Shown: positions 3,129-17,289 of the stretch, piece after piece
Position numbering within the stretch: the stretch's first letter is position 1
Layout of the letters: every line of letters starts with the position of its first letter
Virus record (IMG/VR): IMGVR_UViG_3300008459_000438
Coordinates: 1 to 22,631 of that record
DNA length: 22,631 bases
Strand: one strand, 5' to 3'
Source of the DNA: a virus
The notes under the pieces: generated by a model
What the model was told of the DNA's origin: nothing
Databases searched by the model: none
Seen by the model: the letters and a program-made list of their open reading frames with translations, nothing else
Translations under genes and position numbers: made by a program

Positions 3129-3626
3129 ATGGCAACACTAATCCCAGAAAATGGTCCTAATGGTATCTTCTATACCAATTACGAACCGAAAACGCAAAAT
3201 AGATTCATCATGCAGATAGGCGGTATACCAGCATTCATCTGTAAGAAAGTCTCTCGCCCTAACATCGATTGTGGCGAAGTTGTAATCGATCACATTAACC
3301 TCGTACGCAAGCTGAAAGGTAAGTGTAAGTGGCAAGATATGACTATGACTTTGTACGATCCGATCGTTCCTTCAGGTGCACAAACAGTAATGGAGTGGAT
3401 CAGAACTGCTCACGAATCAGCAACTGGTCGCGATGGATATGCTGACTTCTACAAGAAAGATATCCAAATTCAAACTCTAGGTCCTGTAGGTGACATCGTT
3501 GAACAGTGGACTATCAAAGGTGCATACATTAAAACTGCAAACTTTGGACAGTTAGACTGGTCAACTGAAACCCAAGTTGAAATCGAACTTACTCTCGGTC
3601 TTGACTGGTGCTTACTTGAATTCTAA
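3129..3626 (+). CDS. gp19: Tail tube protein (T4 gp19-like)
   Basis: This 165-aa protein is almost the same length as T4 gp19 (163 aa) and stacks in hexameric rings to form the inner tail tube. Family features are visible. There is an N-terminal stretch leading to NRFIMQIGGIPAFICKKVSRP, a loop with KLKGKCKWQDMTMTLYDPI and a helix GAQTVMEWIRTAHES. A C-terminal beta-strand pair follows, with IKGAYIKTANFGQLDWSTET and the ending LTLGLDWCLLEF. It follows the sheath directly and is closed by a strong terminator, so sheath and tube look like one late unit. There is no Shine-Dalgarno; the start is chosen as the first ATG and the one that gives family length. Arg codons are mostly CGN, in line with a high-copy protein. 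Confidence 0.95.
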   Translation: MATLIPENGPNGIFYTNYEPKTQNRFIMQIGGIPAFICKKVSRPNIDCGEVVIDHINLVRKLKGKCKWQDMTMTLYDPIVPSGAQTVMEWIRTAHESATGRDGYADFYKKDIQIQTLGPVGDIVEQWTIKGAYIKTANFGQLDWSTETQVEIELTLGLDWCLLEF

Positions 3627-3645
3627 TTGAGTATCTTAGTAAAAG

Positions 3646-3679
3646 AAACCAACCTCGTAAGGGGTTGGTTTTCTTTTTT
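3646..3679 (+). terminator. Rho-independent terminator after sheath-tube unit
   Basis: A 9-bp stem (AAACCAACC at 3646-3654 pairing with GGTTGGTTT at 3663-3671) with an 8-nt loop is followed by C and six T residues. It starts 19 nt after the tube stop codon. Confidence 0.9.
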
Positions 3680-3724: not shown

Positions 3725-4597
3725 ATGACAAAAGTTGTAGGCGATCTTCCACCAAGAGCAGATTCACTCTCAAACGAAGAAATTAAACAAATGTTTGCAG
3801 CAGAACAAGCTGCTTACGAAGGTACACCCGTACAAATCAAAAACGATTTTCCAACTGAGATTATTGACTTACCATCAAAAGGGTATTTCTATCCAGAAGG
3901 TCATCCACTTGCAGCAGGTACTATTGAAATGAAGTATATGACTGCAAAGGAAGAAGATATACTATCTTCCGCAACACTTATTAAGCAGGGAGTTGTATTA
4001 GATCGTTTGATACAATCTTTGATTGTGACAAAAGTAAAATATGATGATTTATTGGTAGCAGATAAAAATGCACTGTTAATTGCATCTAGGATTCTTGCTT
4101 ATGGTCCAGAGTATAGTGTTGAAGTGACTTGCCCTAATTGTGGAGCTAAGAACAAAGTAGATGTAGATTTGCAGCAATTTGAATCTAAAGATCTTGACTT
4201 TAGTGCTCTGCAAAAAGGTAAAACTGAACTAGACTTTACATTCCCAATTTGCAAAAAGCATATTACTTTTAAGTTCTTGACACATGGCGATGAAAAGCTG
4301 ATCGAACAGGATATCAAAGGATATAACAAGATGAGGGCTTTACACGGAGTAGATCCGCAGCTGTCAACTAGATTGAAGCATTTAATTACTTCAGTTGAAG
4401 GTGATAGAGATAAAGCAACAGTTCATAAGTTTGTCGATAACTTGTTATCCCGTGATTCGTTAGCACTTAGAAGCTACTTAAAAGAAATTACCCCAGATAT
4501 TGATTTAACCTTTCACTTTAGCTGCAATAGCTGCGACTACACCAACGAGAAGATGATGTTGCCGCTCGATGTGTCCTTTTTTTGGCCTGGGGCCTAG
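3725..4597 (+). CDS. gp26: gp26-like baseplate protein with zinc ribbon; possible frameshift donor
   Basis: This 290-aa protein resembles the T4 gp26 baseplate hub assembly family. The conserved core is visible at residues ~48-100: IDLPSKGYFYPEGHPLA, then MKYMTAKEEDILSSATLIKQG and VLDRLIQSLI. Two CxxC pairs (C136/C139 in TCPNCG and C267/C270 in CNSC) can form a zinc ribbon. The protein ends in PLDVSFFWPGA. It is longer than T4 gp26 (208 aa). The F-F codons before the end form a run of seven T, and the tag stop lies inside a hairpin, with an overlapping ORF in another frame. It sits between the tube and tape measure genes, the place where tail assembly chaperones are coded in many phages. It could therefore be a baseplate component, an assembly chaperone, or both. 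The ATG at 3725 has an A/T-rich leader without Shine-Dalgarno. Confidence 0.8.
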   Translation: MTKVVGDLPPRADSLSNEEIKQMFAAEQAAYEGTPVQIKNDFPTEIIDLPSKGYFYPEGHPLAAGTIEMKYMTAKEEDILSSATLIKQGVVLDRLIQSLIVTKVKYDDLLVADKNALLIASRILAYGPEYSVEVTCPNCGAKNKVDVDLQQFESKDLDFSALQKGKTELDFTFPICKKHITFKFLTHGDEKLIEQDIKGYNKMRALHGVDPQLSTRLKHLITSVEGDRDKATVHKFVDNLLSRDSLALRSYLKEITPDIDLTFHFSCNSCDYTNEKMMLPLDVSFFWPGA

Positions 4598-4781
4598 TTA
4601 TAGGCCCGTTCTGTATGATCAGATCTTTGATCTGATGTATTATGGGAAGTTAGGTTTTACATTTACCGAACTTTATTCCATGCCGATATTCCTACGTAAT
4701 TATTACTATAGAAAGTTAGCCGATGTACGTAAGAAAGAAAATGAGGAGCACGAAAAGGAGATAAAAAAAGCAAAGAGATAG
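4569..4781 (+). CDS. Overlapping small ORF, likely read by frameshift from the gp26-like gene
   Basis: The open frame overlaps the end of the gp26-like gene by 29 nt and lies in the +1 (equally -2) frame. If started at its own ATG it gives 70 aa, but no ribosome-binding site is seen there. The distinctive part begins after the T run: RPVLYDQIFDLMYYGKLGF, then FTELYSMPIFLRNYYYRKL and a charged helical tail to KAKR. The length, helical character and ELYSMP-type motif are reminiscent of the small downstream partner of tail assembly chaperones (lambda T, P2 E'). Slippage at the T run would give a 351-352 aa fusion carrying this domain. Independent translation from ATG 4569 or ATG 4635 remains possible. 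A strong terminator overlaps its stop codon. Confidence 0.65.
   Translation: MCPFFGLGPSYRPVLYDQIFDLMYYGKLGFTFTELYSMPIFLRNYYYRKLADVRKKENEEHEKEIKKAKR
4577..4636 (+). other. Candidate programmed ribosomal frameshift signal (slippery T7 plus hairpins)
   Basis: Seven consecutive T residues (4577-4583) encode F-F in the gp26-like frame. Six nt further starts a perfect 7-bp hairpin: GGGCCTA at 4590-4596, loop GTTA, TAGGCCC at 4601-4607. The zero-frame TAG stop (4595-4597) lies inside the stem and loop. A second perfect hairpin follows: 8-bp stem ATCAGATC at 4618-4625, loop TTT, GATCTGAT at 4629-4636. The downstream open frame requires a +1 or -2 shift. Spacing of 5-9 nt between slippery site and stem is usual for stimulatory structures, and Mu is known to use a -2 shift in its chaperone gene. 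Efficiency and direction cannot be read from sequence. Confidence 0.6.
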
Positions 4782-4805
4782 GCCGATAAAACATCGGCCT
4801 TTTTC
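4780..4805 (+). terminator. Rho-independent terminator after the frameshift ORF
   Basis: An 8-bp perfect stem (AGGCCGAT 4780-4787, loop AAAAC, ATCGGCCT 4793-4800) is followed by a T tract interrupted by C. The stem overlaps the tag stop of the small ORF (4779-4781). Confidence 0.88.
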
Positions 4806-4834: not shown

Positions 4835-5128
4835 ATGACAAGGAAAGAGCTATATCAAATCATACGTGAAGAGTACGACAACGTAAGATTAGAAGAAGGA
4901 CTGCTGTCATGGGCTTCTGGAGTTGCAGATAACATTTTTTATGGTATCATAAACAAAAGAGCAGATATACTTAGAAGTAAAATATTTGATGATCCAAAGC
5001 TACAGAGATTAGCAAAGGACTTGAAGATAGATAAAAAAGAATTAGAAGCAAGAGTTAATAAATTGTTGTCAAGTGATCCAAGATTTTTAAAGAATCTTGC
5101 AACAGTTAGAGCTAAGTATGTTCGCTGA
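4835..5128 (+). CDS. Small helical protein upstream of the tape measure, function unknown
   Basis: This is a 97-aa basic, mostly helical protein. It opens with MTRKELYQIIREEYDNVRLEEG, a pattern (KELxxIIREE) that I recall from the N-termini of several small phage proteins. A short Trp/Gly segment (LLSWASGVADNIFYGI) is followed by two charged helices with DPKLQRLAKDLKIDKKELE and a basic end (VRAKYVR). It overlaps the tape measure start by one nt (TGATG), so the two are likely translationally coupled. A tape-measure chaperone or minor tail protein is plausible from position only. No Shine-Dalgarno precedes the ATG; the leader is a run of A residues. Confidence 0.65.
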   Translation: MTRKELYQIIREEYDNVRLEEGLLSWASGVADNIFYGIINKRADILRSKIFDDPKLQRLAKDLKIDKKELEARVNKLLSSDPRFLKNLATVRAKYVR

Positions 5129-8100
5129 TGGCTAAAAAGCAAAAAATAGATCAGTCACAAATAGACCTATCTAGCATTGGGCAACTCCTCAGCAACATAG
5201 CCGCTGAGAGTTTACAAGATGCTATTGATGCAGTAGAGTTTTCTAGTGTATCCTATAATTTAGCAGATGCTATTGTAGGTGGCTTACAAGACGTTGATGT
5301 CGCTAAGATTATAAAAGAGAATTTAGTAGAAGATACAGCTGTTAAAAAAGTACTTACCGATGCGCAAAAGAAAGTCGAAGACGCAATCGGTAATATGAAA
5401 ATACAGTTAAATAACATAACTGTACCGAAGTCACCAATAAGCATAGATGCAAAACTTGGCAAGATAGATACAACTAGCATAGCAAAGTCAATATCAATAC
5501 CAATTGAATATAGTTATAGTGATTTTGACTTACCAAACGAATCATTGTCTGTAGCTGTAGACTACCTCTATGACACTTTCAAGCTGCCCGTCAAGGAAGC
5601 TGAAAAGAAGATACAAGTACCAGTAAATTACATATATAGTAAATTTACCTTACCATCAGTAAAAAAAATTGATGTGCCGGTATCATATGTTTACGATAAG
5701 TACACTCAGCCAAAAGCAACAAAGGTTAATGTACCGGTAGAGTATGACTATGAGAAGTTTTCATTACCAAAAATAAGCACACTTAACATACCAGTAGAGT
5801 ATACCTACGATAAGCTTATTCAACCAAAAGCACAGCAAATAGACGTGCCTGTAAAATACAAATACGATAAGTTTGTATTACCAACCGCTAAGCCAATAGA
5901 TATTTTTGTTGACTACGTTTACTCAAAGCTTGATTTGCCAAAGGTATCACCTATTAATGTGCAAGTTAAATATGCCTATGATAAATTTATACTACCAAAA
6001 GTATCAGATTTGCAAATAGGTGTATCATATTTGTATGATAAATTTATACTACCAAAAGTATCAGATTTGCAAATAGGTGTATCATATTTGTATGATAAGT
6101 TTACATTACCAAAAGTAAACAGCATAACTATACCAGTTGCGTATATCTATGAAAAACTTAGCTTACCAAAAGTCGATGATATAGAGGTATTCGTTGACTT
6201 CGTATACAGCAAATTACAATTACCCAAAGTAGAACCAATAAGTGTAGCAGTAAAGTATGCTTATGATAAATTCCTACAACCAAAGGTAAGTGATCTTGAG
6301 ATTGCCGTTAGCTACGCATACGACAAGTTTGTACAGCCTATTGCAAAGTCATTAACTGTACCAGTAAAGTATTCCTATGACAAGCTTGTATTACCAAAGG
6401 CCCAAGCCTTAGACGTATTTGTAAGTTATACATACGATAAGCTGCAATTACCAAAAGCAGCACCTATTAATATATTAGTAAAGTATAGCTACGATAAGTT
6501 TGTATTACCAAAAACAAACGACATAGAAGTAGGCGTTAGTTATCTTTATGACAAATTCACTTTACCAACAATAAGTGCATTAACTATTCCAGTTAAATAT
6601 GTTTACGATAAACTAGCATTACCAAAAGCACAAGCTTTAGAAGTGTTGGTTGGATATGTTTATGATAAACTAACTATACCAAAAGCTAACCCTATTACAG
6701 TAGCTGTTAAGTATATTTACGATAAATTTGTACAAGTTAAACCATACAGCATTGAGGTCCCAGTGTCTTATGCTTATGATAAATTTACATTACCTAAAGC
6801 TCAGCAGATTGATGTAGCAGTAAATTATTTGTATGATAAGTTTGTGTTACCAAAAGGTACTGTAAGCATACCAGTAAAATATATTTACGAGAAGCTTATT
6901 TTACCAAAGGCTAGTGATGTAAAAATTGGCGTTACTTACCTATACGATAAGTTTATACAACCAGCAGTAAAACCAATCACTATTGCTGTTAAATACATTT
7001 ACGATGAGCTTATTGTACCAAAAGTAAAAGATATAGGTGTTGGTGTCAAATTTACATATGATAAGTTAGTACTACCAAAAGTTGAAGCTCTGAGTGTGAA
7101 AGTTGGATACGTGTACGACAAGTTCATTCAACCAATTATTAAGCCTATTGTAGTAGGTGTAAAGTATGCATACGAAAAGTTTGTGTTACCAAAAGCACAA
7201 CAAGTAAATATAGCAGTTGATTACATTTATAGTAAGTTTAATTTACCAAAAGCAACAATATCTGTACCGGTATCATTCAACTACGATAAATTTGTTTTAC
7301 CTAAAGTAGGTGGATTGTCAGTACCCGTAGCATTTGATTATGATGAGTATACACAACCAGAACCAGAAGATATAACAATACCGGTAAGCTATGATTACGA
7401 TAAGCTCATTTTACCAAAATCACAAGCAGTAAATGTATTTGTTGATTATGTTTATAGCAAATTCACTTTACCAAAAGCAAATCCATTATCAGTAGCAGTA
7501 AAATATGTTTATGATAAATTAGTTTTACCAACAGTTAAAGATATAAAAGTACCAGTACGATATGTACTTGATAAGTTTGTAGCACCAAAACTAGAGCCAA
7601 TTACAGCTAATATATTACCAGATACATCGGCACTTGGTTTAATGGATGATGTAAACGTAACGGCTAAAGTGTCTGCTTTTAATACAGATTTAATACAACA
7701 AAGAATAAGTGAGATTACCCCAATTGATATTAATACAACGACATCAGGTGCACCAGTTATAAGCACACTTACGTCGGGTATAGAAAACGTAAGTGATGCA
7801 GCTAGAAACTTTGTTAACTTAATAGGTGAAGCAAACAAACGTGCAACTATAACAGTTCAGTTATATGATCGCATAAGACAAGCTGCAGAGCAATTAGTGT
7901 CTGCTAATATGATGGAAAGAGCTGAAGTAGATAAAACACTTCAGACACTTGAAACTAAACTCAAAGCAACAAAATCTGTAACACTGTCAACTAAACTTGG
8001 CAAGATTGATACGGGTGGATTAAAGCCAGTAAACATAGAAGCGGTTGTATCTAAAGTTGATATGTCCACTGTCGATAAAGAGGTTTACAAGTATACACCT

Positions 8101-11100
8101 ATTATACTGGATGCAGTTGTTAATGTTGATACAAGTGAAATAGAGAAATTACAAGGTAGTGTACAACCACAAATACAAGCAAGCGTATCAGAAGCAAACA
8201 ACCCACAAAAAACAGCAGCTCCCAACATAACTGGATTCAATACTACGGAACTCACCACAGCATTAAAAAAGGCAATTGTTGACGCAACTGTATTTATGCA
8301 AAAAGAATTTGGTATTGCGGCAGCAGCTGTTGGTAAAAATGCTGGCACATTTATTAATAGTGGTATATCAAGTAGTAAATTATTTTCAGATATAGACACT
8401 AGTGATATTGTTGGCTCCTTTGATGATTTACTAGACTCAACGAAGCAGTTAAGAACGGAAACTACTTTAATATTAAATAATAACAAAGAAGATCAACAAA
8501 CAATTATACAAAGATTAGCATACCAAAAGAGTATAGCTAGTCTAGCTTTTGAAGAAAAAGCGATACTGGTTAGTAGGCTCGGAATAGATCCAGGTGGTAA
8601 GTCTGATAAGCAGATTAACAGCCTTATAGTTGAGCGACTAATGTATCAATATAAGCTAAACGATGCATTGGCAATATCAAAGGAAACTGCTGTAGATTAT
8701 ACACGGGCTATGAGACAAGCCGAAATGGATAATTTAATAAAGGATCTCACAGTGCAGCTTACGTTAACAGAGGATGAGGTGTCACAAAGAGCGTTATCCA
8801 TGGCTTTGGCAAACGAAGCAGCTGGACTTGGTAGACTGTTGACAGAAGAGCAGAAAAAGCAGCTCGTACTAGAAAACCAGAAGCTTAAGCACAGAAGAGA
8901 AGAAGTTGAATTGATCGAGCATGTTGCAAATTATCAAAGAGAGGTAATAAAAGAAGTTGATGAACTTAAAGAAAAATGGACCAAGGTCGGTGCTACAATA
9001 AGAGCTATTGCCGAAAGTCCAGCATTTGCAAAAGGTGTTTTAATAACTAGTGCATTAGCTTTGGGTGAAAGGTTAGCACATACGATGCATGAGTTTAAAG
9101 AAGTTGGTATGGACGCTGGTAGCGCTGTAGAAGCTTCCTTCCGAGGAGTGACCTTTAACTCAATGTTAGGATTAAGTGATACATCGGGAGTATTAAAAAC
9201 AATAGTACAACAATACGGTACCATAAACGCACTAACAGGTGAACAGGTTGATGCGGTCGGGTATATGGCAAAGAGCAATGGATTAGCTGCTGAGGAAGCA
9301 ACTAATATGGTTATGGCATTATCTAGGATGCCTGGCATGACTAGAGAGTCTGCTTCAAACAGTGAAGCAATATTCAAAAGTATAGCTAAACAAAAAGGAG
9401 TTATACCAGCACAAGTAATGAAAGAAGTTGCCAAGAACTCTGGTTTAATGGCAATGTATAGCAAAGGTGGCGCTGAAGGGTTTATTAGAGCAGCTGCCTC
9501 AGCAAAAAAAATGGGTGTTGAGCTAAGCACAATGCTTAACGCTGCTAGAAAAACATTAGATTTTGAAAGTAGTATACAAGCTGAAATGGAAGCCTCTGCG
9601 TTAATTGGTAGATCACTTAACACAGATGCACTCAGAAGAGCAGCATTGTCTGGTGATGCAGAAGCAATACAGAGAGAGCAGTTGAAGCTTATACAACAGG
9701 CAGGTGGTTTAGAAGGTAAGAATACTTTACAAAAAGAGAAGCTTGCAGAATTACTAGGCCTCCAAGTTGAGGACATGCAAAAGATTAACGACAGTGCAAA
9801 ATACCAAGAAGAGCATTTTGGTCAACAAGCGGGTATATGGCAAAATATTACTGGTGGTTTAGGAACAGCTGTTAAATATACAGAAGGTTTATCACAAGGA
9901 TTTAATACATGGTTACCTCTACTAACTGGTGTGACTAGCTTAATGACTCTTATGAATGTTAAAACATTACCAGGTTTAGTAACAGGTACCTATGGTATGA
10001 TTAAGGGTTTGGCATCTGGTGTGTTTCAAGCTGGTCTCCTACTACTTAAGTTTGTAGCTATGGGTGCAGTAAAATTATTTAGCCCATCTACATGGACTGG
10101 ATTAGTTGGTGGTATCACAAGTGCTGGTAAGGCAATGCAAGGATTGAGTTTCAAAGGTGCCATGGATAGTCTAAGTGGTCTGAAAACTAAACTAATAGAT
10201 TTTGTAAAAGCAGCTTCAGCTGGCAAAGTTAAAGAAGCCTTTAGCGGTATGTTTGGTGGAGGTGGGGCAGCAGGTGGCACATCATTTGCAGATAGACGTA
10301 GAATGGTATTGGAAAGGCAAAGAGCGGGTGGTGGATTGTCACCTAGAATCCCTGAAGCACCAACTAGTGGAGCTGGTCCAACTGATCAAGCAAGCAGAGT
10401 TGGTAAACTCAATGCTGGTGATATGATGAAGGGTGCAGCGGCATTGCTAATAGTTTCTGCAGCATTGTACGTTGCAGCAAAAGCATTCCAAGAATTTGCA
10501 ACAGTTAAGTGGCAAGATGTTGCATTGGGCATTGGTGGTATAATTGGATTATCTTTAGCTACAAAAATAATAGCTAAAGGATCAAGCGAGATGATAAGAG
10601 GTGCGGTTGCAGTTGCAATACTTGGTGTCGCATTGATACCATTTGCTTATGCAATGGGTTTGATAGCAAAACTAGATATTAACTCAGTACTAGCAGCTGC
10701 AGCAGGCTTAGTTGTATTTACAGCAGCAGTGTTTGGTCTTGGTGCTTTAATATCCGGACCTGGCGCTATAGTATTTGGTGCAGGTTTACTTGGATTAATT
10801 GGCTTAGGTATAGCGTTGAGTGTATTAGGTGAAGGATTGCAGAAGGTAACAACACCAATGGAAGTGTTTGCAAAGTCTTTTGGAGATATGATAAAGTCAA
10901 TGGACCCTAAATCCTTATTAATGATTGGCATTGGCTTACCATTAGTGGCATTTGGTATAATGGCATTAGCAGGTTCATTGGTATTTGCTATACCAGCCGC
11001 AGCAGCTTTAACAATACTAAGTGGAGGATTGTCTGTATTTGGATTAGCAATGATACCATTAGCTAATGGTTTAAAATTAGTAGCACCAGCACTTGAGAGT

Positions 11101-11784
11101 GTAAGTTTGAGTTTAGCTAACTTGGTATCTAATGTAGATGGAGGAGCATTAATACAAATGGGCATTGGAGCAGCAGCGTTGGGTGTTGGTATTGGTGCAT
11201 TAGGAGCAGCCGCGTTTATAGCATCCCCAGGCTTAGTTGTTTTATCATTAGTGATGATGGGTATAGGTGCATCAATGAAGATAGTGGCTGATAGCATAAA
11301 TTCATCATCAGTAGGTATTCGAGGATTAATAACAAATTTAACACAGTTACCACCATTAGTAAGTGGCTTACTTCAAATAGCAGGAGCGTTAGACAAAGTA
11401 GCATCAAGCATGACTAAGCTAGCAATAGCAGGTGTACTAGCCGCGCCAGCAATGGCTATAATGAAAGGCCTTGGTGGTGGAGAAGTGAAACCAAAAGAAC
11501 CAGTAACATTAGGTGAAGCAAAAACCACACCTGCAGGAGCAGCACCTGTAGTTAAAGCAGCACCACCATTAGCACCTGCACCTGCACCAATTACTGCCGC
11601 AGCGACAACACAACAAACTGTGGAAAAAACAACTAAAGAATCATCCACAGACATATCTATAATAGCAGATAAGTTGACTGAGTTGATTACTGTAATGAAG
11701 TCTGGTGCAGTAATAAATGTTGATGGACGTAAACTTGCAAGTGTTGTACAAAGTAACATAAGAGCATTAAAATTCACTGACTAA
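5128..11784 (+). CDS. Tail tape measure protein with large N-terminal repeat array
   Basis: The 2218-aa product is the longest in the window and follows tube and chaperone-like genes, the expected place for the tape measure that sets tail length. Architecture: residues 1-120 form a helical leader. Residues 121-820 hold 37 units of about 19 residues with the pattern V-x-Y-x-Y-D-K-F/L-x-L-P-K. Residues ~820-1080 hold further degenerate strand segments (KLGKIDT, VSKVDMSTV). Residues ~1080-1285 are charged helices, then ~1285-1555 form a soluble helical domain (GATIRAIAESPAFAKG...VEDMQKI). Residues ~1825-2065 are several very hydrophobic Gly/Ala-rich membrane-like segments. A Pro/Ala-rich linker and a conserved-looking end, INVDGRKLASVVQSNIRALK, follow. 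Membrane-like and helical segments are normal for tape measures; the beta-rich repeat array is not. It overlaps the previous stop by one nt, and its own stop overlaps the next ATG by one nt. Confidence 0.88.
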   Translation: MAKKQKIDQSQIDLSSIGQLLSNIAAESLQDAIDAVEFSSVSYNLADAIVGGLQDVDVAKIIKENLVEDTAVKKVLTDAQKKVEDAIGNMKIQLNNITVPKSPISIDAKLGKIDTTSIAKSISIPIEYSYSDFDLPNESLSVAVDYLYDTFKLPVKEAEKKIQVPVNYIYSKFTLPSVKKIDVPVSYVYDKYTQPKATKVNVPVEYDYEKFSLPKISTLNIPVEYTYDKLIQPKAQQIDVPVKYKYDKFVLPTAKPIDIFVDYVYSKLDLPKVSPINVQVKYAYDKFILPKVSDLQIGVSYLYDKFILPKVSDLQIGVSYLYDKFTLPKVNSITIPVAYIYEKLSLPKVDDIEVFVDFVYSKLQLPKVEPISVAVKYAYDKFLQPKVSDLEIAVSYAYDKFVQPIAKSLTVPVKYSYDKLVLPKAQALDVFVSYTYDKLQLPKAAPINILVKYSYDKFVLPKTNDIEVGVSYLYDKFTLPTISALTIPVKYVYDKLALPKAQALEVLVGYVYDKLTIPKANPITVAVKYIYDKFVQVKPYSIEVPVSYAYDKFTLPKAQQIDVAVNYLYDKFVLPKGTVSIPVKYIYEKLILPKASDVKIGVTYLYDKFIQPAVKPITIAVKYIYDELIVPKVKDIGVGVKFTYDKLVLPKVEALSVKVGYVYDKFIQPIIKPIVVGVKYAYEKFVLPKAQQVNIAVDYIYSKFNLPKATISVPVSFNYDKFVLPKVGGLSVPVAFDYDEYTQPEPEDITIPVSYDYDKLILPKSQAVNVFVDYVYSKFTLPKANPLSVAVKYVYDKLVLPTVKDIKVPVRYVLDKFVAPKLEPITANILPDTSALGLMDDVNVTAKVSAFNTDLIQQRISEITPIDINTTTSGAPVISTLTSGIENVSDAARNFVNLIGEANKRATITVQLYDRIRQAAEQLVSANMMERAEVDKTLQTLETKLKATKSVTLSTKLGKIDTGGLKPVNIEAVVSKVDMSTVDKEVYKYTPIILDAVVNVDTSEIEKLQGSVQPQIQASVSEANNPQKTAAPNITGFNTTELTTALKKAIVDATVFMQKEFGIAAAAVGKNAGTFINSGISSSKLFSDIDTSDIVGSFDDLLDSTKQLRTETTLILNNNKEDQQTIIQRLAYQKSIASLAFEEKAILVSRLGIDPGGKSDKQINSLIVERLMYQYKLNDALAISKETAVDYTRAMRQAEMDNLIKDLTVQLTLTEDEVSQRALSMALANEAAGLGRLLTEEQKKQLVLENQKLKHRREEVELIEHVANYQREVIKEVDELKEKWTKVGATIRAIAESPAFAKGVLITSALALGERLAHTMHEFKEVGMDAGSAVEASFRGVTFNSMLGLSDTSGVLKTIVQQYGTINALTGEQVDAVGYMAKSNGLAAEEATNMVMALSRMPGMTRESASNSEAIFKSIAKQKGVIPAQVMKEVAKNSGLMAMYSKGGAEGFIRAAASAKKMGVELSTMLNAARKTLDFESSIQAEMEASALIGRSLNTDALRRAALSGDAEAIQREQLKLIQQAGGLEGKNTLQKEKLAELLGLQVEDMQKINDSAKYQEEHFGQQAGIWQNITGGLGTAVKYTEGLSQGFNTWLPLLTGVTSLMTLMNVKTLPGLVTGTYGMIKGLASGVFQAGLLLLKFVAMGAVKLFSPSTWTGLVGGITSAGKAMQGLSFKGAMDSLSGLKTKLIDFVKAASAGKVKEAFSGMFGGGGAAGGTSFADRRRMVLERQRAGGGLSPRIPEAPTSGAGPTDQASRVGKLNAGDMMKGAAALLIVSAALYVAAKAFQEFATVKWQDVALGIGGIIGLSLATKIIAKGSSEMIRGAVAVAILGVALIPFAYAMGLIAKLDINSVLAAAAGLVVFTAAVFGLGALISGPGAIVFGAGLLGLIGLGIALSVLGEGLQKVTTPMEVFAKSFGDMIKSMDPKSLLMIGIGLPLVAFGIMALAGSLVFAIPAAAALTILSGGLSVFGLAMIPLANGLKLVAPALESVSLSLANLVSNVDGGALIQMGIGAAALGVGIGALGAAAFIASPGLVVLSLVMMGIGASMKIVADSINSSSVGIRGLITNLTQLPPLVSGLLQIAGALDKVASSMTKLAIAGVLAAPAMAIMKGLGGGEVKPKEPVTLGEAKTTPAGAAPVVKAAPPLAPAPAPITAAATTQQTVEKTTKESSTDISIIADKLTELITVMKSGAVINVDGRKLASVVQSNIRALKFTD
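5452..5471 (+). repeat. KLGKIDT-coding repeat, left of the array
   Basis: The 20-mer AAACTTGGCAAGATAGATAC matches 7993-8012 at 19 of 20 bases. Both code for KLGKIDT and they bracket the 19-residue repeat array at about 36 and 405 nt from its ends. Confidence 0.6.
5488..7587 (+). repeat. 37-unit tandem array (57-bp / 19-aa units) inside tape measure gene
   Basis: By reading the translated frame I count 37 units keyed on V-x-Y-x-Y-(D/S/E)-K-(F/L)-x-(L/Q)-P. Most are 19 residues; a few are 18, and one early unit is 22. Units 8-22 and 34-37 follow a four-type order. Type A ends VDYVYSKL or VSYTYDKL, type B contains PI..VKYAYDKF, type C contains D-(I/L)-x-(I/V)-G-VSYLYDKF, type D contains (L/I)-T-(I/V)-PVKY.YDKL. 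The alternation of short hydrophobic beta-like strands with conserved YDKF-LPK turns suggests a regular beta or extended fibre. Most units have diverged at DNA level, so the array is old apart from one recent duplication. Confidence 0.92.
5977..6098 (+). repeat. Exact 57-bp tandem duplication within the array
   Basis: Bases 5977-6033 and 6034-6090 are identical, and identity continues for 8 more bases (6091-6098). The copied unit is the type C repeat coding KVSDLQIGVSYLYDKF. This is the only perfectly duplicated unit seen and is clearly younger than the rest of the array. Confidence 0.95.
7993..8012 (+). repeat. KLGKIDT-coding repeat, right of the array
   Basis: This is the right-hand partner of 5452-5471, with one mismatch (T for A at the 15th base). 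It starts a more degenerate series of segments of the form V.I.A.VSKVDMSTV in the tape measure. Confidence 0.6.
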
Positions 11785-14710: not shown

Positions 14711-16675
14711 ATGGCAACGTCTTTTGGTGGACATAATAGTTTTGGACAATCAGGTGAATTAGAAGCAAGAAGAAGTCCAAATGCTTTTAATGATTGGTTT
14801 GCAAGACGCACAGTTTGGGTAAGACTGCAATCCTACAGTAGTGGTTGTGGATCATACAAAGAGTTAACTGGCCTCAAAAACAACATACCATACGAAGAGG
14901 GATATAATGGTAGTAGACCACAACCAATTATAACAGGTGTCAAAGTTACTAGCGCTGGTAATCTTGGTACAATTAGAGAGGCTACTGTTAATATAATAGC
15001 TTTTACTAACGAGCAATTAAATGATCTAGAAGCTTGTTATTTAATTCCAAAGATGAGCGTTACAGTCTCATTTGGTTGGTCAGTAGGTGCTAGTGGAGCT
15101 GTACCAGCAGGTGGAATTAGTGGTGCTTCTGATAATGCAATACAGTGTTCATTAAAGGGCTTATGGCCAGTTGGCGATGGTGTACATGGTAGAGTTTCAA
15201 AATACGAAGTGTCGTTCAACAAAGATGGTATGTGGTGGGAGTTGTCGGTAAAGATTGTTGGCATTGGCAATGCTGCATTAACAGCACCAGCAGAAGATTT
15301 TACAAATACATGCAAGTGTGACACTGCATCATCACCTGCAGCACAGCAGAAGGAGGTGGATGAGGATACGAAAGCAGAGGCATCAGGTTTTAAGCAGGTA
15401 TTTATTCACTTATGTGAGTATGCGTCCAAAAATGATGACGCATCTTACAACAAGATATTAGGTTATGGCAGTCAGTTTGGTGCAGCTGGTAGCACATACG
15501 CAGCTATACTAAATAATAAAAATAGATGGAAGACTTCACTACTAGAAGACATAGCTGGTTACATACCAGACTTCCTTGGACAGGCTTACCGATGGATAAG
15601 AGAAAAAGTCTCTGGTGATGCAAATCCTTGGTCATCTATGGAAGCTTATATTACCGTTGATGGTATTGTTAAAGCATGGGAAATGCGTAGTACGTCACAA
15701 TGTGATAATGGACCAATATGGGGTAAGTTTGATAATACAAAGGGAGGCTTAATAAGTGGCCCACCTTCTGTATTACAAAGTGCCAATCCACACAAAGCTT
15801 TATTTCCACCAGAAGATGGTTATGAAAAGTTAACAGCTGGAAGTTGTTTTAGTGGAGGTAAAGTGCTTGTAGGTAAAATATTAGTTAATACAATTTTTGC
15901 AAACCAATGCTTAGAAGATTGTGGTAAACAGGCAACCTTTGAAGATTTTATGTCAAAGATTTTGCAAGGCATTAATGACGCAGCTGGCGGTTTATGGGAA
16001 TTGACAATAATAAACACAGGAGACTGCTCATCAGCAACACCAATTTATTCCATTATAGATTTGCAGGCAGTACAAAGTGTGGCTCCAACTAATATTCCAT
16101 TGAATCCAAAAATAGCGGTTGTTAGAGAGGTTGGCTTGTCATTAAAAATGACAGATGCTATGCAAACTCAAGCATTATACGGAGCTGTTAGACAAGGTAA
16201 AAAAGATCAACCGTGTGATGAAAAACGATTTACCAACGTGTTGCAAGCAACACCAAATAGCTTAGATCCAAATGGATGTAAGGTACCAGCGGCACCTAGT
16301 TGTGGTGAAAATGCTGATCTTGGATGTGAGCCAGCTAGTAGTGGGGAGAGCTCTAACTTTCCAGCAGCAAGGACAGCAATGCAAAAGGATACTGGTAATC
16401 CCGATTTAATGGAAGCGTGTTATACTGCATTAGCTAATTCGCATAATGTAACTGGAGCGTCATTGCCTACACAATGTAAGAACGTAATATTGCCATATGA
16501 GTTTAGCTTTACAATTGATGGTATTGGAGGCTTTGAGTTTGGTCAAATGGTTACCAGCAACATACTACCAGCAAACGCTTCTGCCGTATATGTATACCAA
16601 GTTACTGCTGTAGAGCATAATGTAACACATGGTGATTGGACAACAACTGTAAAAACTGTACCAAGATATAAATAA
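14711..16675 (+). CDS. Baseplate hub protein (T4 gp27-like), cysteine-rich
   Basis: This is a 654-aa protein. The N-terminal ~190 residues carry a hub/VgrG-like pattern: PQPIITGVKVTSAGNLGT, REATVNIIAFTNEQLNDLE, YLIPKMSVTVSFGWS and a strand KYEVSFNKDGMWWELSVKIVG. The C-terminus (about 595-654) is typical for hub or late-control proteins: YEFSFTIDGIGGFEFGQM, NILPANASAVYVYQVTAVEH and W-TTTVKTVPRY. These parts would form the trimeric ring linking tail tube to the spike. No lysozyme domain is visible, so the lytic activity found in T4 gp5 must lie elsewhere. There are about 17 cysteines, many clustered (CKC at 201-203, and GCKV-SCGE-GCEP near residues 521-542), unusual for a phage virion protein. 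Gene spacing is 4 nt upstream and 5 nt downstream. Confidence 0.78.
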   Translation: MATSFGGHNSFGQSGELEARRSPNAFNDWFARRTVWVRLQSYSSGCGSYKELTGLKNNIPYEEGYNGSRPQPIITGVKVTSAGNLGTIREATVNIIAFTNEQLNDLEACYLIPKMSVTVSFGWSVGASGAVPAGGISGASDNAIQCSLKGLWPVGDGVHGRVSKYEVSFNKDGMWWELSVKIVGIGNAALTAPAEDFTNTCKCDTASSPAAQQKEVDEDTKAEASGFKQVFIHLCEYASKNDDASYNKILGYGSQFGAAGSTYAAILNNKNRWKTSLLEDIAGYIPDFLGQAYRWIREKVSGDANPWSSMEAYITVDGIVKAWEMRSTSQCDNGPIWGKFDNTKGGLISGPPSVLQSANPHKALFPPEDGYEKLTAGSCFSGGKVLVGKILVNTIFANQCLEDCGKQATFEDFMSKILQGINDAAGGLWELTIINTGDCSSATPIYSIIDLQAVQSVAPTNIPLNPKIAVVREVGLSLKMTDAMQTQALYGAVRQGKKDQPCDEKRFTNVLQATPNSLDPNGCKVPAAPSCGENADLGCEPASSGESSNFPAARTAMQKDTGNPDLMEACYTALANSHNVTGASLPTQCKNVILPYEFSFTIDGIGGFEFGQMVTSNILPANASAVYVYQVTAVEHNVTHGDWTTTVKTVPRYK

Positions 16676-16680
16676 TTATA

Positions 16681-17289
16681 ATGGCAACGCAGCTTGATAA
16701 ATTAACGATTGCTAAGATAAGCAAGAAAACAAAATACCTTTATACAAAAGGTGGTGAGTTTAGTTTAGATGGTGTAGAGTATGTTGGAGAGTATCACATT
16801 ATAGGATTTGATGTAAGAACTGGTCCTGTACCAAGTCAATCATCAAAGCTGTTAAGGCAGTACTACACTGATCCTCTTTTATATGAATATGATAAAGCAA
16901 GAGCTTTTAAATCAAGAGATGTAGTTGAGCCAAATCAAAGCGTTGTTAGACCAAGAGAGTCTGACTACACTACTGGGTTTATGGTAAGATATTTTGTTGA
17001 AAGAGCTGGATCTTTTGAAGGTTACCCAATAGAAATAGACAAGTTACAATATGCATCATATGGTAAAGAGGGAGGTATAAGTGGTGATGTTTACAACTCA
17101 GTTGCTATAAATTGGAAGTTAACTGGTCCAAGAAATAATGTCTTTACACAAGATGGCACATTGTATGAAATGGGTATATTCGAGCATAATCAGCAAGTTG
17201 TTTACAGCGCAACAAGAATTATACCATCCTTACCAGGTGCAATTAAAAACTATTTAGAGTTTGCAAAAATAACACGAGTCTATCGATAG
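16681..17289 (+). CDS. Probable baseplate/virion structural protein of marine phage type
   Basis: This is a 202-aa protein. The N-terminus has TKYLYTKGGEFSLDGVEYVG-EYHIIGF followed by TGPVPSQSSKLLRQYYTDP. Proteins with a GGEFxLxGxEYVGxYH pattern are common next to baseplate genes in marine myoviruses, and I recognise the pattern from memory rather than a database match. The middle contains DYTTGFMVRYFVERAGS and NWKLTGPRNN; the end is basic (EFAKITRVYR). It is the last gene of the tail/baseplate unit and closes with a 10-bp palindrome at its stop. A minor baseplate or fibre-attachment part is the likeliest role. Confidence 0.6.
   Translation: MATQLDKLTIAKISKKTKYLYTKGGEFSLDGVEYVGEYHIIGFDVRTGPVPSQSSKLLRQYYTDPLLYEYDKARAFKSRDVVEPNQSVVRPRESDYTTGFMVRYFVERAGSFEGYPIEIDKLQYASYGKEGGISGDVYNSVAINWKLTGPRNNVFTQDGTLYEMGIFEHNQQVVYSATRIIPSLPGAIKNYLEFAKITRVYR

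Follow-up and report, generated by a model that had tools for sequence, protein, structure and literature searches.

A gene for a gp26-like zinc-ribbon protein and a small open reading frame (ORF) that overlaps its 3′ end in another frame raise the question of whether the two are expressed as separate proteins, or whether some ribosomes change frame at their junction and thereby make a fused product in addition to the short one. Both lie in a 22,631-nt stretch of viral DNA which was analysed as a whole (hereafter the window); the coordinates of the features are given in Table 1. The reading put forward here, to which we assign a probability of roughly 0.87, is that a single gene encodes a T4-type pair of tail assembly chaperones (TAC), TAC-N and TAC-NC, by +1 slippage.

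Table 1. The putative chaperone gene and its surroundings, in positions of the window
Feature	Position	Strand	Remarks
Tail tube protein (gp19-like), upstream	3129..3626	+	phrog_4542 tail tube, E=4e-24
Terminator-like hairpin 3′ of the tail tube gene	3645..3672	+	
Putative TAC-N, short form: gp26-like zinc-ribbon protein, 290 aa	3725..4597	+	stop TAG 4595-4597; PF12322, phrog_150
+1-frame ORF (TAC-C)	4557..4781	+	about 65 aa beyond the junction; stop 4779-4781
Putative slip site UUU UUU U	4577..4583	+	TTT TTT T in frame with the gp26-like ORF
Conserved UGG CCU 3′ of the slip site	4583..4588	+	zero frame Trp-Pro, +1 frame Gly-Leu
Stem-loop 1, GGGCCTA-GTTA-TAGGCCC	4590..4607	+	6 nt 3′ of the T run, overlaps the zero-frame stop
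Stem-loop 2, 8-bp stem 4618-4625/4629-4636	4618..4636	+	not conserved
Terminator-like hairpin from the end of the +1 ORF	4780..4800	+	
Presumed tape measure protein, 2218 aa, downstream	5128..11784	+	position, length, repeats

The gp26-like ORF ends, in zero frame, with ...GTG TCC TTT TTT TGG CCT GGG GCC TAG; the downstream ORF is open from 4557 and stands in the +1 (equivalent to −2) frame relative to it. A +1 shift at the T run would join the two into a protein computed at 351 aa, which is predicted to read ...DVSFFGLGPSYRP... across the junction. The gp26-like ORF and the TAC-C ORF share one small unit flanked by two terminator-like hairpins. Genes for sheath and tube lie upstream of it, and the locus has the tail tube gene on one side and the presumed tape measure gene on the other, as is usual for G/GT-type chaperones, with one 97-aa ORF intervening before the latter; this ORF (4835-5128) is without a convincing family match. 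The gene at the equivalent position in Flavobacterium phage immuto is annotated as tail tape measure protein. The presumed tape measure protein of the window carries a long N-terminal array of repeats of about 20 residues (of the type VPVxYxYDKFxLPK), which are near-identical as DNA in only 2.5 copies (57-nt unit, 5977-6117). Two ORFs of the baseplate region, 14711-16675 (654 aa) and 16681-17289 (202 aa), had no match in PHROGs at E≤1, and the former had none in Pfam either.

To gather relatives of the locus, viral contigs were scanned with the gp26-like protein as query and once more with an alignment of 15 members, and annotated phages were added. About 190 gp26-like loci were collected in this way, 165 of which were matched by a profile of the downstream domain, and in all 165 loci where this domain is detectable, TAC-C is offset by +1 from the gp26-like gene that it overlaps. 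A search in the reverse direction, with the downstream domain as query, gave 80 loci, which all fit the +1 overlap, 78 of them at once; the count includes three apparent exceptions (L208, L245 and L263) that were read by eye. In L208 and L245 the upstream TAC-N frame is broken and the normal slip site is intact, and the breaks are probably assembly errors; the odd site reported for L263 arose from the script. Scans seeded with L003 and with phage XacN1 found no relatives. An earlier note on this DNA, made from the sequence alone, had proposed a frameshift into the overlapping +1/−2 frame with a product of 351–352 aa, and had named relatives with the two ORFs separated or in frame as evidence that would refute it; such relatives are absent from both sets (165/165 and 80/80), the frame offset is kept, and the computed length falls on the lower of the two values, so that the candidate stands. 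The locus is beyond chance because site and frame are conserved in all relatives examined.

The short form matches PF12322 (T4_baseplate) with E=3.9e-15 (score 56.6, cut-off 24.5), the domain extending over most of the protein, and phrog_150 (baseplate hub) with E=7e-18, a match that runs to position 232 of the 282 in the profile. Both gp26 and gp51 of phage T4 are full-length PF12322 proteins, gp51 having an extra C-terminus, and it is this extra part that is matched by the TAC-C ORF of cyanophages (phrog_634, hub assembly catalyst, and the end of phrog_150). The profile of the fused window-clade protein is co-linear across the junction with T4 gp51 and the cyanophage fusions (hhalign 94%, E=1.2e-7); the match of the TAC-C domain alone to the C-terminus of T4 gp51 is weak (59%, E=9e-5). 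Judged by the PF12322 matches and the co-linear fusion profile, the short product corresponds in sequence to gp26 and the 351-aa fused product to gp51. Thus T4 and other T4-like phages share with the window the family (PF12322, phrog_150) and the logic of two products; in T4, however, genes 26 and 51 are separate and lie on opposite strands, while the window has one gene and a shifted frame.

Modelled with AF2 (mean pLDDT 85.8), the fusion has a confident N domain, a linker of low confidence at residues 283-294, which coincides with the junction, and then a helical C domain. The model of the latter rests mainly on the query itself, because the separate C-domain rows were placed badly in the input alignment. 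Among the viral structures matched by the model are baseplate hub and hub assembly proteins of T4-like type; searches of the PDB by sequence and by fold gave nothing significant, with the HK97 tail assembly chaperone (2ob9) appearing only at E=4.1.

That T4-like gp26 proteins act as chaperone donor, as the earlier note had suggested, is right and had already been published, and the match of the two window products to T4 gp26 and gp51 agrees with it. The view that genes 26 and 51 of T4 are the tail assembly chaperones TAC-N and TAC-NC comes from a 2022 paper (Vladimirov, Gautam, Davidson 2022, Virology 566:9-15), which is cited in PMC10885494 and PMC12846349; its abstract reportedly names genes 26 and 51, and frameshifting is said there to be conserved in several T4-like groups. 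As cited in PMC10885494, the paper has some T4-like phages carrying a short TAC gene together with a separate, longer fused gene.

At the junction, TTT TTT TGG CCT is found in 131 of 155 distinct sites, the remainder being close variants, and TGG CCT is kept in 138; a homopolymer T run is present at about 90% of the sites. In the AT-rich window, a run of seven T is by itself not unusual (9 found versus 16 expected), and TTTTTTTGGCCT occurs once there and in none of 100 shuffles. Variant sites among the relatives read TTT CTT TGG, TTT CTT TAC, TTT CTT CTC and TTT CTA TTC (the last in L003), and those of distant +1 phages TTC TTT CGT (GXN1), TTT TTT CAC (SP-15), TTT TTT AGT (LIS04) and CTG TTT CGC (BRock). 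All that the variant sites have in common is a UUU codon with U or C after it (UUU-Y), which is carried by the distant +1 phages SP-15, LIS04, GXN1, RM378 and BRock; the T run, the conservation of which had been set as a check, is thus either kept or replaced by UUU-C. In relatives of the type of Alishewanella phage Slickus01 (L099, L101-L104), a TAC-C-like ORF overlaps in the +1 frame and the T run is absent; a shift site, if there is any, is not recognisable there.

The earlier note had left the choice between +1 and −2 open. Because only UUU-Y is common to the variant sites, we favour +1 slippage of the P-site tRNA-Phe, from UUU to UUU or UUC, a preference that comes from the pairing argument; the same restriction argues against a −2 shift and against slippage during transcription. 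A −2 shift on this U run, of the kind known from phage Mu, would reach the same frame and give a product of 352 aa with one extra Phe, and on TTT TTT T the tRNA-Phe would re-pair perfectly from the second UUU; it is nevertheless improbable, since it would meet a mismatch at the middle position in TTC TTT CGT (GXN1) and CTG TTT CGC (BRock) and re-pair poorly in TTT CTA TTC (L003), whereas the +1 move from UUU-Y to UUY pairs correctly at all three. Distinctly less credible is slippage of RNA polymerase on the T7 run, which would produce the fusion from edited transcripts with one U less or two more: frequent as the homopolymer run is, this process needs it unbroken, and at 11 distinct sites it is interrupted by a C (TTTCTT or TTTCTA) with frame and domain still conserved, and the covarying hairpin 3′ of the site (see below) suits ribosomes. 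Finally, that the downstream ORF is a small gene of its own, read by re-initiation or from ATG 4569 or 4635, both of which are present in the TAC-C frame of the window, is very unlikely even though deposited annotations name it a separate hypothetical protein, as an ATG upstream of the site in this frame is found in only 45 of 165 relatives, 44 of the 165 are without any ATG, GTG or TTG between the upstream stop and a point 50 nt beyond the site, the residues that precede position 4635 are conserved, unlike the Met encoded there, and the cognate products are one fused protein in T4 gp51. Independent initiation at either codon, which had been named as a refutation of the frameshift, accordingly finds no counterpart in conserved start codons. 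The conserved pattern of TAC-C is GL.P.YR...QI...Y.G.GG....VYNMPI.LR. In two deposited genomes, L001 (3851-4087) and L002 (3845-3955), the C-terminus of the chaperone is annotated as a separate or truncated hypothetical protein. A shift at the stop codon or at the Pro codon (RF2- or PSA-like) was also considered and rejected, as neither the codon preceding the stop nor its distance to the site is constant.

The +1 slippage favoured here may be assisted by RNA structure in part of the relatives. Stem-loop 1 has a perfect 7-bp stem (4590-4596/4601-4607) overlapping the TAG at 4595-4597, and the stretch with both stem-loops folds with z = −3.5, none of 200 shuffles being as stable. Across 26 relatives from the window clade and the clades near it, selected according to position in the gp26 tree, 91.8% of the pair cells are paired, and five of the seven pairs have changes on both sides; the covariation score is reached by none of 500 shuffles and is destroyed when the partner is slid. 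Four sequences scored as partly unpaired can pair one base out of register. Some of the changes alter +1-frame amino acids on both arms (for example Pro/Ser with Arg versus Leu with Lys), and this speaks for selection on the RNA. From most other relatives, which keep site and frame, stem-loop 1 is absent; it is therefore best seen as an accessory element, likely a lineage-specific stimulator of slippage. A role as general requirement was rejected on account of this absence; a search of Rfam found nothing relevant. Stem-loop 2 has all 8 pairs only in the window and in L011, and between 4 and 7 in the other close relatives; not being conserved even among the closest relatives, it was rejected as a stimulator and is probably incidental to the coding sequence. 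Of the arrangement described in the earlier note, the T7 run, the 6-nt spacer and both perfect hairpins are all present in the window; in the alignment of relatives that it had called for, T run and frame offset proved conserved, stem-loop 1 was kept in a subset only, and stem-loop 2 did not hold.

The locus would then work as follows. Most ribosomes would stop at 4595 and release the short form, the gp26-like TAC-N. In a minority, whose P site holds peptidyl-tRNA-Phe on UUU while the A-site codon is UUU or UGG, the tRNA would slip one base forward, from UUU-U to UUU, so that these ribosomes read past the zero-frame stop in their new, +1 frame; UGG may be a slow A-site codon. They would add the helical C-terminal domain and yield the 351-aa TAC-NC, the predicted counterpart of T4 gp51. 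In the phage of the window and its close relatives the downstream stem-loop 1 probably raises the rate of slipping. If lambda G/GT is taken as the model, the short form would coat the tape measure protein and the long form recruit subunits of the tail tube; this chaperone role of both forms is extrapolated from the TAC biochemistry of other phages.

In lambda, the shift in the tail chaperone gene is −1 and takes place at GGGAAAG, and the slip site of phage Mu is G-rich, which differs from the U run of the window. Lambda G/GT otherwise resembles the arrangement proposed here in the position of the gene between tube and tape measure, in its short and long chaperone and in the low-level frameshift near the 3′ end (Xu et al. 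2004; PMC5009743); the lambda protein is unrelated, whereas the window would use +1 on UUU-Y in a zinc-ribbon protein. Tail chaperone frameshifts are −1, −2 or +1 in different phages, and the G-T type of frameshift is widely conserved except in T4 (reviewed in PMC5009743). The +1 frame is reached in the tail chaperone genes of phage Mu (by −2) and Halorubrum virus HSTV-2 (by a probable +1; PMC5009743), as is proposed for the window, but the chaperones are different proteins. Poly-T sites in T4-like TAC-N genes are described as −1 signals in PMC12846349, which cites Vladimirov et al. 2022, in contrast to the +1 frame of the window; in the literature, with the 2022 paper represented by those citing it, a +1 direction for TAC-N of T4-like phages was not found.

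A closer comparison is offered by the pairs of gp26 and “hub assembly catalyst” genes in cyanophages and jumbo phages (Sf-CH11, C48C1, 121Q, PA5oct, Atu_ph07, Serratia BF). There, as in the window, a T run encodes the Phe-Phe at the end of TAC-N, with which the TAC-C ORF overlaps in another frame, yet this frame is −1 (T TTT TTC/T) instead of +1. The −1 frame is found in cyanophages, 121Q, Serratia BF, PA5oct, Atu_ph07, XacN1 and LR756511, the +1 frame in the window clade, L003, RM378, GXN1, LIS04, SP-15 and BRock; the window and all of its close relatives have TAC-C in the +1 frame, and −1 occurs only in distant relatives. The deep branches of the gp26 tree are long and weakly supported, which makes it too uncertain for counting switches of direction. 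Phage L005 (LR756511), with a genome of 595 kb, has the −1 organisation on TTT TTT TTC and groups weakly with +1 phages of Gram-positive hosts; its position hints at a change of direction, the long branches making the grouping unsure. We lean, with some reserve, towards the view that the Phe-Phe junction was kept while evolution altered the direction of the shift: it would be −1 in cyanophages and in several of the jumbo phages, absent from T4 with its two separate genes, and +1 in some Gram-positive phages as well as in a large clade that has Bacteroidota-associated phages and Microcystis phages among its members. In the +1 version, tRNA-Phe would move from UUU to UUY, with the covarying stem-loop assisting in some lineages.

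As to the hosts, four matches were found in bacterial genome assemblies, three of which are labelled Bacteroidota (Winogradskyella, Flavobacteriales, Sphingobacteriales); together with the Flavobacterium immuto phages, they point to Bacteroidota hosts for much of the window clade. The presence of Microcystis phage Mel-JY01 indicates that the clade is not limited to phages of Bacteroidota.

A frameshift in a tail chaperone gene is thus of a known kind and its +1 variant is apparently new; the +1 version looks like a distinct variant across a large T4-like group, represented mostly by environmental sequence data. For this group, annotation is to be corrected, as the C-terminal half of the chaperone has been missed or called a separate hypothetical protein. 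The locus gives independent support to genes 26 and 51 of T4-like phages as tail assembly chaperones, beyond parts of the baseplate hub. It also provides a natural comparison, in which one protein junction would be crossed with a −1 shift, with a +1 shift or with none, and which can be used to ask what determines the way ribosomes shift, forward or back, on a U run.
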